A stretch of DNA of 46,944 nt from the NCBI GenBank assembly GCA_949283025.1, contig CASDRB010000014.1:1-46944 (forward strand), given 5' to 3'. A program made the position numbers and the translations under genes. Positions within the stretch are counted from its first letter, which is position 1, and every line of letters begins with the position of its first letter. Shown here piece by piece: positions 1 to 4,372 of this stretch. The notes below the pieces were generated by a model, which had not been told where the DNA came from, ran no database searches, and was given only the letters and a program-made list of their open reading frames with translations. Source of the stretch: an uncultured bacterium (GTDB lineage Bacteria; Bacillota_I; Bacilli_A; RFN20; CAG-826).

Positions 1-67
1 CAACCCCTACACCCAAGGTTAAAACACCTAAAATACCTAGGGCGATTAGATTTTTCAATTTCATCAT
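1..67 (-). CDS. 5' end of an exported protein gene (truncated by window edge)
   Basis: Only the first 22 codons are inside the window. On the minus strand an ATG-ATG start at 67/64 opens a frame reading MMKLKNLIALGILGVLTLG and continuing off the edge. This is a short basic N-terminus followed by a hydrophobic stretch, so a signal peptide or first membrane segment is likely. A GAGGG Shine-Dalgarno site lies 8 nt upstream of the first ATG. The gene is divergent from the invertase at 112, with a 44-nt spacer shared by both promoters. Product unknown; no lipobox Cys is reached before the edge. Confidence 0.6.
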   Translation of the reverse strand, partial: MMKLKNLIALGILGVLTLGVGV

Positions 68-111
68 AAATTAAACCCTCAATAAATTTATAAAATGATA
101 GGAGGGTCAAT

Positions 112-717
112 ATGGTATATGCATATGTTAGGGTATCCACAGATTCACAAATTGTGGATAATCAAAAATTTATAATAGGGGATTTTTGCAAACAAAAACA
201 AATTGCGATTAATGGATGGATTGAAGAGACTATTTCAGGAACTAAAGATTATCAAAAGCGATTATTAGGTAAAAAATTAAAAAAGAATTTTAATTCAGGA
301 GATATTTTGCTATGTACTGAATTATCAAGACTAGGAAGAAACTTGTTTATGATAATGGATATATTGAATTATTGTATGAGGCATGACATCAAAGTGTGGA
401 CGATAAAAGAAAATTATCGTCTTGGTGACGACATACAGTCTAAAGTCTTAGCATTTGCGTTTGGTATATCAGCAGAGATAGAAAGAAATTTAATTTCTTT
501 AAGAACTAAAGAATCGTTGCAAAGATTAAAAGCGCAAGGCAAAAAATTAGGAAGGCCATTTGGGTCCAAAAATGCTCACTTAAAAGGCGAGGGAAAAGAA
601 AAATATATTAAATCATTATTAGCAAAAGGGATAAGCAAAAAGAAAATTGCTAAAAGATTAAAAATACATCCAAATACATTGACTTATATATTAAAAAGAA
701 TTAATTGTAATCTTTAA
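112..717 (+). CDS. Mpi-like serine recombinase (DNA invertase)
   Basis: 201-residue small serine recombinase of the resolvase/invertase family. The N-terminus YAYVRVSTD holds the catalytic Arg7 and Ser9 of the family. ELSRLGRN (about residues 90-97) and SAEIERNLISLRTKE (about 124-138) are the other catalytic and long-helix motifs; LGRPFGSKN starts the linker, and the C-terminus (about 172-195) reads as a helix-turn-helix. From memory the whole protein closely resembles the Bacteroides master DNA invertase Mpi, which flips many promoters and so controls phase variation. Family members cut and rejoin DNA at inverted repeats through a Ser-DNA link. The SD site GGAGGG is 5 nt before ATG. The 3' end overlaps the convergent smpB by 17 bp. 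No matching invertible repeat pair was recognised in this window, so the targets would lie elsewhere. Horizontal transfer from gut Bacteroidota is possible but not shown. Confidence 0.85.
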   Translation: MVYAYVRVSTDSQIVDNQKFIIGDFCKQKQIAINGWIEETISGTKDYQKRLLGKKLKKNFNSGDILLCTELSRLGRNLFMIMDILNYCMRHDIKVWTIKENYRLGDDIQSKVLAFAFGISAEIERNLISLRTKESLQRLKAQGKKLGRPFGSKNAHLKGEGKEKYIKSLLAKGISKKKIAKRLKIHPNTLTYILKRINCNL

Positions 718-1165
718 TTTTTTGGGCGATATCTTTTTTAATATCACGATTTTTGATATCTTCTCTTTTGTCGTATAATTTTTTACCTTTAGCAAGGGCT
801 ATTTCGATTTTGCATCGTCCATCTTTAAAATAAATTTTTGTAGGAACAATAGAAAATCCACCTTGTTCAGCTTTTTGAGAATATCTTAATATTTCTTTTT
901 TATGCATTAATAGTTTTTTATCTCTTAAAGGATCTTTATTAAAAATATTTCCTTTTTTATATGGCGATATGTTCATATTGATAACATATGCTTCCATATT
1001 GCGGATAAAAACATAGGCATCATTGATGTTAACTCCGCCATCGCGGATAGATTTTATTTCGGTTCCAAATAATTCAATTCCACATTCTAAAAATTCGCTT
1101 AAATAATAATTAAACGAAGCTTTTTTATTTTTAGAAATGATTTTAACACCAACTTGTTTTGCCAT
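701..1165 (-). CDS. smpB: SsrA-binding protein SmpB
   Basis: 154 residues, normal SmpB length. SmpB binds tmRNA and delivers it to stalled ribosomes for trans-translation. Recognisable blocks are KKASFNYYLSEFLECGIEL near the N-terminus, GTEIKSIRDGGVNINDAYV (about 35-53), the NISPYKKGN segment (about 65-73), and the basic C-terminal tail with KGKKLYDKREDIKNRD that enters the mRNA channel. The start ATG at 1165 gives the expected MAKQ N-terminus. There is no SD site; an extended -10 (TGTGATAAT on the minus strand) ends 9 nt before ATG, suggesting a leaderless mRNA. It is divergent from folC and overlaps the 3' end of the invertase. Confidence 0.95.
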   Translation of the reverse strand: MAKQVGVKIISKNKKASFNYYLSEFLECGIELFGTEIKSIRDGGVNINDAYVFIRNMEAYVINMNISPYKKGNIFNKDPLRDKKLLMHKKEILRYSQKAEQGGFSIVPTKIYFKDGRCKIEIALAKGKKLYDKREDIKNRDIKKDIAQKIKDYN

Positions 1166-1236
1166 GGCTTTTATATTATCACAAAATTATTCAAAACAAT
1201 ATTTTAACTATATTAAAGTGTGATATAGTAATGAAT
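1166..1236. promoter_or_regulatory. Divergent smpB/folC promoter region
   Basis: The 71-nt gap holds two oppositely oriented extended -10 elements. On the minus strand TG-T-GATAAT occupies 1175-1183 for smpB (9 nt to its ATG). On the plus strand TG-A-TATAGT occupies 1221-1229 for folC (7 nt to the ATG at 1237). Neither has a convincing -35 box at 17 nt, which extended -10 promoters can tolerate. No SD sequence precedes either ATG. Confidence 0.5.
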
Positions 1237-2469
1237 ATGTTTAGTGATATTATAGCTTTAAATAACTATCTATCTAATTTAAGAACCGGTGATTATCAAC
1301 GGGATAATTTTGATGCTTTTTTAAAAAAAGTTAAGTTTAAATTTGATTTACCTGCGATTCATATTGCTGGCACTAATGGAAAAGGAACAACTGGCCAAAT
1401 TATTAATGACATATATGTAAAAGCGGGTTATAAAGTGGGGTATTATCGCTCACCTTATTTTTTAACCCCTTTAGAAGTGATTACTATCAATAATATCAAC
1501 ATTGAACTTCAAGAATTTGAAGAAATGATTTCTCCTTATTATAAAGAAATAAAAAAATACAATTTATCATCTTTTGAAGTTGAAACTTTTGCAGCTTTAT
1601 CTTTTTTTAAAAAACAACAATGTCAAATATGCATTATTGAATGTGGTATGGGTGGGGAAGTTGATGCTACAAATATTTTTACACCAATTTTATCAATAAT
1701 CACTTCAATTGGTTTAGAACATACAATGTTTTTGGGATCTAGCATTTCTGAAATTGCTTTTCAAAAAGCAGGTATTTTAAAAGATGATGTGGCTTGTATT
1801 ATTGGCGATTTAAATCAAGAAGCTATCGATGCTATTGCGTATAAAGCTCATGAAACTAATTCGCTATTGATCAAAAGACAAGATTATTTAAATGAAAGAT
1901 TGATTGATAATGGATATTATTTTGATTTTAAACCATATCAAAATTTATTTATTTCCTCGACTGGTTTTTATTGTTTAGAAGATGCCGCTATTGCTTTAAG
2001 TGCCATTGAATTTTTAAAAAAAGATTATCCATATCAAGAAGATAATATAAAAGATGCTTTAAAAGAATTTCATATTAATGGAAGAATGAATATATTAAAT
2101 TCTAATCCATTATTAATTGTTGATGGGGCACATAATCCGGAAGGAATTCAATTATTAAGACAATCATTAGAAAAAATAAACAAAGAAGACAAACCGATAC
2201 ATATTATTTTTGCCGCTTTTAAAGACAAAAACATCGACGCAATGTTAGCGGAATTGTCTTTTATTTCTAAAGACATTGTCTTAACTAGTTTTGAACATCC
2301 ACGAGCTAGAAAAGATAGTGATTATTTTTTGTTTTTAGATGAATATCAATATCAAGAAAACCCATTGACATTAATCAAAAATAAAATGGAAATGTATCCT
2401 AATGATATAATTGTTGTATGTGGCTCATTAGCCTTTGCATATTTTATTGTTAATGATTGGAGGAATTAA
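1237..2469 (+). CDS. folC: Folylpolyglutamate synthase / dihydrofolate synthase FolC
   Basis: About 410 residues, typical for FolC, a Mur-ligase-type ATP-dependent enzyme that adds glutamate to folates and so retains them in the cell. Visible motifs: the P-loop HIAGTNGKGTT, YRSPY, the ECGMGGEVDATN segment, ITSIGLEHTMFLG, and the C-terminal-domain start IVDGAHNPEG. The frame is open from 1159, but that start overlaps smpB. I prefer ATG 1237 (MFSDIIALNNYL) because an extended -10 lies 7 nt before it; ATG 1231 is the alternative. Directly upstream of the FolT-like transporter gene (no gap), so uptake and polyglutamation of folate form one unit. Confidence 0.92.
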   Translation: MFSDIIALNNYLSNLRTGDYQRDNFDAFLKKVKFKFDLPAIHIAGTNGKGTTGQIINDIYVKAGYKVGYYRSPYFLTPLEVITINNINIELQEFEEMISPYYKEIKKYNLSSFEVETFAALSFFKKQQCQICIIECGMGGEVDATNIFTPILSIITSIGLEHTMFLGSSISEIAFQKAGILKDDVACIIGDLNQEAIDAIAYKAHETNSLLIKRQDYLNERLIDNGYYFDFKPYQNLFISSTGFYCLEDAAIALSAIEFLKKDYPYQEDNIKDALKEFHINGRMNILNSNPLLIVDGAHNPEGIQLLRQSLEKINKEDKPIHIIFAAFKDKNIDAMLAELSFISKDIVLTSFEHPRARKDSDYFLFLDEYQYQENPLTLIKNKMEMYPNDIIVVCGSLAFAYFIVNDWRN

Positions 2470-3526: not shown

Positions 3527-4372
3527 ATGAAAAAATACTGGAATGTCTTTTTACTTGTCGCCTTGATGGCGTTGAGTGCATGCACCATTAATAATCCATC
3601 AACATCATCGACGAGCAATAATGATAACACAAGTCAAATTTCAACATCAAATAGTGAAGAAACTAGCACGAGCGAATCTACATCATCGACAACGACAAGC
3701 GAAGTGGATGAAGTTGAAGCATATTATCAAGATGTAGATACTTCGTTATCAGGTGAAGCGTTTTTAAAAGAATTGCAAGATTTAAACGCCAAGATGAGAG
3801 TAAGAACAGTTGGTTATAGCAACATGGGAAGTTATTTTTTAAAAACCGATGGAGATCCTGATAATCCTGGTAATTTAATCGGATTTTATTCTGGCGATTC
3901 TGCATATTTTAGTGGATCTTGGACCACATTTAATCGCGAGCATGTTTGGCCTAATTCTCGTGGTGGAAGTGCAGTAGAAAATGATATTCATGTCATTAGA
4001 CCGACAATCCAATCTCAAAATGGTGATAGGGGAAATTCATTTTTTGTCGAAGGAAAAAGTTCATCCAAAGGCGGCTGGGATCCAGCTATGGAATCTTGGG
4101 GAGATGCCAAATATCGTGGCATCGTTGCAAGAATTGTATTTTATTGTGTTGTCGCTAATCCAAATTTTGAATTAGTAGACAAGGACAATGTCAGCAGTGG
4201 CGAGAGCAACTACAAACGTTCTATGGGAAAATTAAGTGATTTATTGGAATGGAACGATACTTATTCTATCGATTGGACAGAAACGCAAAGAAATGATGCT
4301 GCTCAAGATATTCAAGGTAACCGCAATCCATTTATCGATCATCCAGAATGGGTTAATAAAATTTGGGGCTAA
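3527..4372 (+). CDS. Endonuclease I (EndA)-type nuclease lipoprotein
   Basis: 281 residues. A signal peptide ends in the lipobox LSAC (Cys19), followed by a Ser/Thr/Asn-rich linker (about 20-62) and an endonuclease I domain. The domain core reads NREHVWPNSRGG with the expected catalytic His at residue 139, followed by NDIHVIRPT and QNGDRGN, the beta-beta-alpha-metal signature of EndA/secreted DNase I-like enzymes of Gram-negative and Gram-positive bacteria. The predicted job is degradation of extracellular DNA at the membrane surface. SD AAGGAG precedes ATG. A strong terminator follows at 4391. It may supply fragments to the nuclease/ABC locus at 33-47 kb; this link is inference. Confidence 0.88.
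   Translation: MKKYWNVFLLVALMALSACTINNPSTSSTSNNDNTSQISTSNSEETSTSESTSSTTTSEVDEVEAYYQDVDTSLSGEAFLKELQDLNAKMRVRTVGYSNMGSYFLKTDGDPDNPGNLIGFYSGDSAYFSGSWTTFNREHVWPNSRGGSAVENDIHVIRPTIQSQNGDRGNSFFVEGKSSSKGGWDPAMESWGDAKYRGIVARIVFYCVVANPNFELVDKDNVSSGESNYKRSMGKLSDLLEWNDTYSIDWTETQRNDAAQDIQGNRNPFIDHPEWVNKIWG

Follow-up and report, generated by a model that had tools for sequence, protein, structure and literature searches.

Inversion of the G segment of Mu and D108 swaps alternative gene ends. The gene of the Gin serine invertase adjoins one arm of that segment in the D108 annotation. For the Mpi invertase of Bacteroides fragilis, inversion of 13 scattered regions has been reported, of which seven are capsule promoters (PMC4747536); PMC5903667 likewise reports its multi-region inversion. 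For the Vpma proteins of Mycoplasma agalactiae, an adjacent Xer1, recombination between position -72 and the start codon, and one unique promoter have been described (PMC2268961). In the MBA and UU172 systems of Ureaplasma, a conserved N-terminal region with the signal peptide is described as fused by inversion to alternative bodies; the repeats (~21 nt) lie inside the gene, and the source leaves the enzyme unsettled, with tyrosine recombinases suggested (PMC3047005). In the Bacillus-like Firmicutes of a 2025 survey of gut invertons, the median number per genome is given as 0 (PMC11892184). Our literature search, with most subscription journals outside its reach, found no description of the layout reported here.

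The locus that we compare with these systems opens a stretch of 46,944 nt (hereafter the window), which is the entire contig C14 (G000:C14) of a 1.196-Mb genome from an uncultured bacterium (16 contigs; assembly 97% complete). The size, base composition, and genes of this genome suggest an RF39-like member of the Bacilli. The locus shares with B. fragilis Mpi the recombinase family, by curated score, and a tie to surface variation, but here there are two local sites, which overlap gene starts rather than flank a promoter. As in Vpma, the recombinase gene adjoins surface genes; Xer1 of the Vpma/Vsa type, however, is a tyrosine recombinase, whereas the window enzyme is a serine recombinase with a Resolvase domain, and here the layout would comprise two genes, with a repeat that takes in the signal peptide. 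The likeness to Ureaplasma MBA and UU172 would lie in a constant signal-peptide region joined to alternative bodies, and that to Mu and D108 in a serine invertase beside one arm of an inverted segment, although the window enzyme is only 29% identical to Gin, which falls outside the Mpi-type clade and whose target is tail fibres, not surface proteins. Lactococcus plasmid pJM1F and a Bacteroidales contig (L026) also encode a member of this recombinase family, with inverted repeats in the gene next to it and an alternative specificity part in opposing orientation, but the target of these systems is DNA-modification specificity. By analogy, the window case would work like the Vpma and Ureaplasma switches, with a recombinase from the family of Mpi.

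The recombinase gene is an open frame from an ATG at 112 to a stop codon at 715-717 (Table 1). Residues 2-145 of its product match the Pfam Resolvase domain (E = 3.1e-28), and residues 1-197 of 201 score 285.1 bits against NCBIfam NF009949 (master DNA invertase Mpi family), an Mpi equivalog with a curated whole-protein cut-off of 272 bits. The first-pass annotation, which had called it a full-length Mpi-type serine invertase and quoted the blocks SRLGRN and AEIERNLISLRTKE, both present in the translation, was thus right on this point. The nearest solved structures by sequence are the DNA-invertase chains 4m6f (E = 2.6e-9) and 3uj3 (E = 1.1e-8). In a tree of 27 proteins, B. fragilis Mpi itself not among them, the recombinase clusters with those of Mpi type (97/94) and stands apart from both Gin and the Tn3-like recombinases of its order; the phylogeny that had been proposed as a check places it with Mpi-type recombinases and not with those resolvases. 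It is 43-64% identical to the other 22 Mpi-type rows, which come from Bacteroidota, Spirochaetota, Lactococcus, Campylobacter, Desulfobacteria, cyanobacteria, and a phage, some of them on plasmids; this spread over many phyla speaks against the earlier picture of a gene that is notably Bacteroides-like and sits in an unusual host. Three other genomes (G004, G016, and G045) have recombinases at contig edges; these were weaker matches and, by the tree, other serine recombinases, not Mpi-type. The window's own genome also has large serine recombinase genes at the end of C16 (L002 and L005) and on C2 (L001), with open frames of 322-554 aa, which likely derive from other mobile elements.

Table 1 Features at the start of the window (positions on contig C14)
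Feature	Position	Strand	Basis or remark
5' fragment (22 codons) of exported surface-protein gene, divergent from invertase	1..67	-	Cut at contig start
Right inverted-repeat arm: ribosome-binding site, start codon, signal-peptide codons	1..80	-	Runs off contig
Spacer with invertase ribosome-binding site	81..111		No promoter match inside in scan
Mpi-type serine recombinase (invertase), 201 aa	112..717	+	NF009949 score, Resolvase domain, tree
SmpB gene, conserved right-hand neighbor fixing synteny	704..1165	-	NCBIfam SmpB, 195.4 bits (cut-off 130)
FolC gene, conserved right-hand neighbor	1159..2469	+	TIGR01499, 303.6 bits (cut-off 162.65)

The divergent start of an exported protein had been noted beside the invertase. 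It is present (ATG at 67-65, minus strand, MMKLKNLIALGILGVLTLGVGV...), though only as a fragment, truncated by the contig start at position 1. Positions 1-80 are identical (80/80) to C10:72014-72093 in opposite orientation, and the C10 copy, which reads 20 codons further, likewise runs off its contig end. The identity between the two copies stops abruptly at the ribosome-binding site, and the sequences upstream are unrelated. C10 ends exactly 141 nt past the onset of identity, and 141 nt is also the overlap at several other contig edges, so that the contig most likely stops where the assembly graph branches, with an arm of 141 nt or more; C14 carries 80 nt of it, not 141, and two other contig edges overlap by 34 and 69 nt. 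When the whole assembly (97% complete) was searched with a 25-nt stretch of the arm, which is a piece of the arm and not an established core site, two places only were found at up to three mismatches (C10 forward and C14 reverse), and a 112-bp query of the same genome returned one strong partner. Within the window itself, the longest inverted-repeat pairs measure 22-37 nt, are for the most part 72-87% alike, and do not include the exported start; its partner arm sits on another contig.

The start codons of the exported gene and the invertase are just 44 bp apart. A promoter scan of the C10-side flank found four matches, little better than shuffled sequence (mean 2.6, SD 1.7), and counts in the flanks of both arms were also close to those of shuffles; the case for a sole promoter on the C10 side is therefore one of synteny and the 44-bp spacer. 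Aligned with its relatives, the C10 upstream region is alike mainly at the ribosome-binding site and start. Near-dyad stretches are visible by eye around the start codon in this genome, in G127, and in L029, a Spirochaetia contig, but yielded no common crossover core. The search for repeated inverted sites that had been suggested earlier thus yields one inverted pair (C10/C14), spanning gene starts and not many promoters. We take this pair of ribosome-binding sites and signal-peptide starts as the likely target, which the first-pass annotation had not foreseen. Its idea of phase variation survives as a link to variation of the adjacent exported protein; lipoproteins as the target are not supported, since no cysteine is visible in the available part of the neighbor's signal region.

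The surroundings of the two arms point to one ancestral surface-gene slot. Three genomes of the same genus (G001, G003, and G004) have the order desulfoferrodoxin gene, O-antigen-ligase-like gene, one surface gene, smpB, folC, the surface proteins being 567-622 aa long with a signal peptide and a C-terminal membrane anchor (by eye). G004 has an extra small gene after the desulfoferrodoxin gene and two more before smpB; the latter, one of them helix-turn-helix-looking, lie between the surface gene and smpB (L106 6599-7400). This gap, which holds the invertase in the window and small genes in G004, may attract insertions. G002 also keeps the ligase-like gene, smpB, and folC in this order, and the listed frames include no surface gene between them. 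In the window's genome this order is split, its left half closing C10 and its right half opening C14, and these ends belong together because in G001, G003, and G004 the genes of both flank one surface gene. On the simplest reading of these gene orders, a single surface gene would have been replaced by a segment with two facing starts, and the invertase would have been acquired on the smpB side of the right start; an insertion of greater length separating C10 from C14 is conceivable.

The slot also varies between the closely related G001 and G003 (L104 6852-8645 and L105 3900-5765), which are 95% identical in DNA over 562 nt (upstream region and start), then unalignable for ~550 nt, then 84% identical; the proteins have an identical signal peptide, a near-identical C-terminus, and a different early body. 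Neither genome has an Mpi-type gene above cut-off, so that the slot is variable even without such a gene. In search of the missing segment, an exact 37-nt pattern gave 0 matches in viral contigs and a protein scan of viral contigs gave 0 relatives, while a scan of genome contigs gave seven relatives, none recognized as the same species. The window's genome has two more exported or anchored genes that are truncated at contig ends (L074 2327-2998 on C1; L078 2784-2999 on C5). These fragments may be portions of a single gene or belong to other variable loci, and both were considered as the missing bodies. The C5-end fragment was rejected as the missing body: it has its own locus, with an exported gene also present in G001, G003, and G004 and followed there by what we take to be an arginine decarboxylase homologue. 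The C1-end fragment had no relative in the other five genomes searched.

Contig breaks are concentrated at the Mpi-type genes of the order. In four of the six over-cut-off genomes the invertase start has an edge <400 bp upstream (46, 103, 111, and 352 bp), and G031 and G127 have none that close; contig counts put the probability of such a pattern at P ~1e-6, a value obtained with rounded counts and with the 400-bp threshold picked after the data were seen. Two further genomes from a sample of the phylum have edges 109 and 475 bp upstream, so that a break falls within 500 bp in 6/8 over-cut-off genomes. The excess agrees with either repeats or mixed orientations at the arms, and repeats by themselves would suffice.

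The NF009949 cut-off was exceeded in 6/279 genomes of the order. An evenly drawn second sample, of 392 genomes from the phylum, had four above it, two of which were already among the six, giving eight distinct genomes (G000, G031, G127, G157, G075, G080, G363, and G553). The other genomes of the genus gave 0/4 above cut-off. A seventh genome of the order, G156, has a damaged Mpi-type copy with five in-frame stops (L120, G156:C30, 177-605), which by its sequence appears to be a decayed switch.

The divergent neighbor of the invertase is a surface gene in three of the eight genomes and restriction-modification specificity-like in five, the match being strong in two and weak in three. In G075 and G553 it is homologous to the TaqI-like specificity protein of pJM1F (64% identity over 78 residues and 53% over 116, respectively); the weak matches are to G075, over 25-28 residues in G080 and G363 and over four of the six visible residues in G157. 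On pJM1F itself, the Mpi-family gene adjoins an N-6 methylase gene and an opposing TaqI-like ORF, with inverted repeats of 321 nt (71% identity), and in the Bacteroidales contig an Eco57I/PglX-like gene has, at its 3' end, a stretch of ~0.8 kb flanked by inverted repeats of 29 and 37 nt. Three other Mpi-type relatives (L027, L031, and L113) showed no clear adjacent inverted repeat.

An intact parallel among surface genes is found in G127, a genome of the same family, in which the surface-gene start region beside the Mpi-type gene (C9) has two further copies, in inverse orientation, on C23. These arms are 177 nt long and 94% alike (C23 1-177, where the contig begins, and 3951-4127), cover the 5'UTR and signal peptide, and enclose a convergent pair of surface genes (570 and 738 aa), whose products share 34 identical N-terminal residues, differ in their bodies, and both have bacterial Ig-like domains. 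The third copy of the 5'UTR adjoins the Mpi-type gene, and the tie between C9 and C23 is one of shared sequence alone. In the Spirochaetia contig, two convergent genes for exported proteins, neither product with a family match, flank the Mpi-type gene; their starts form 37-nt inverted repeats (95% alike) with identity that again begins at the ribosome-binding site. G031 differs: its Mpi-type gene stands behind one of two divergent surface genes, and a 16-nt inverted repeat (15/16), a match reached in 0/60 shuffles, bounds 81 bp between them (L091 2823-2935). This looks like a candidate invertible promoter, that is, promoter inversion and not an exchange of starts.

We consider it likely that the window gene is the local invertase of a two-way, either/or surface-protein switch. 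The arms on C10 and C14 would enclose an unassembled segment of a few kilobases with two alternative, convergent surface-protein bodies, both joined to the signal-peptide repeats at the segment ends. The enzyme would most likely exchange strands inside the facing start regions and so turn the segment round. With the C10 side, where relatives keep their surface gene, as the presumed promoter side (from synteny and the 44-bp spacer), its upstream region would lead into either body by turns, and the exported protein would change in its body behind a constant upstream region, start, and signal peptide. Single cells could thus probably swap one surface protein for another. This reading is favored because the inverted arms are identical at 80/80 positions with unrelated upstream sequence and exactly two copies in the genome, and because the intact G127 segment and the Spirochaetia contig have parallel layouts. 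Against it stand the lack of an over-cut-off invertase in four of the five genomes of the genus, the different layout in G031, the C14 arm of 80 nt rather than 141, and the near-shuffle promoter scan of the C10 side.

A recent duplication or gene conversion might instead keep the starts of paralogues alike, with the invertase an unrelated passenger or active elsewhere. Gene conversion could maintain identical starts without any invertase, and G001 and G003 differ by an exchange at this very slot with no Mpi-type gene above cut-off; yet the abrupt end of identity at the ribosome-binding site, the inverted copies that face each other by synteny, the invertase abutting one copy, and the recurrence of the same triad in G127 and the Spirochaetia contig make this explanation improbable. 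The first-pass annotation had seen a master invertase that flips many promoters at once, genome-wide, as in B. fragilis. The family is named for B. fragilis Mpi, the 13 regions that Mpi is reported to invert (PMC4747536) set the precedent, and the repeat in G031 is a promoter-inversion layout; with the 25-nt arm stretch at C10 and C14 only, one strong partner for the 112-bp query, and several relatives that adjoin their own likely target, we regard genome-wide action as very unlikely here. We give equally little credence to the view that the gene serves a mobile element or a restriction-modification cassette that landed beside a surface gene by accident. The specificity-gene neighbors in 5/8 over-cut-off genomes and the relatives on plasmids and a phage would agree with it, but no restriction-modification gene adjoins the invertase in the window, where the neighbor is a surface gene with an inversely duplicated start. 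Replacement of the master-invertase reading by that of a local surface-protein switch is, for an argument from sequence, well supported.

Taken across the order, Mpi-type invertases seem on balance to be a portable local switch with two cargos, DNA-modification specificity genes and anchored surface proteins, the repeats of the surface version comprising the ribosome-binding site and signal peptide, so that the start would be constant and the body exchanged. It is also somewhat probable, by analogy, that the surface version, run by a serine recombinase, is the counterpart of Vpma in mycoplasmas and MBA in Ureaplasma. With its two arms, the locus offers an exact junction that can be tested. The contig breaks suggest that draft assemblies tend to lose just the variable segment, and such switches are possibly under-counted. 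If our reading is true, the label "master invertase Mpi family" in automatic annotation may often mark local switches, and a programmed, mycoplasma-like surface switch, run by an unrelated class of recombinase, would operate in small-genome, apparently uncultured Bacilli.
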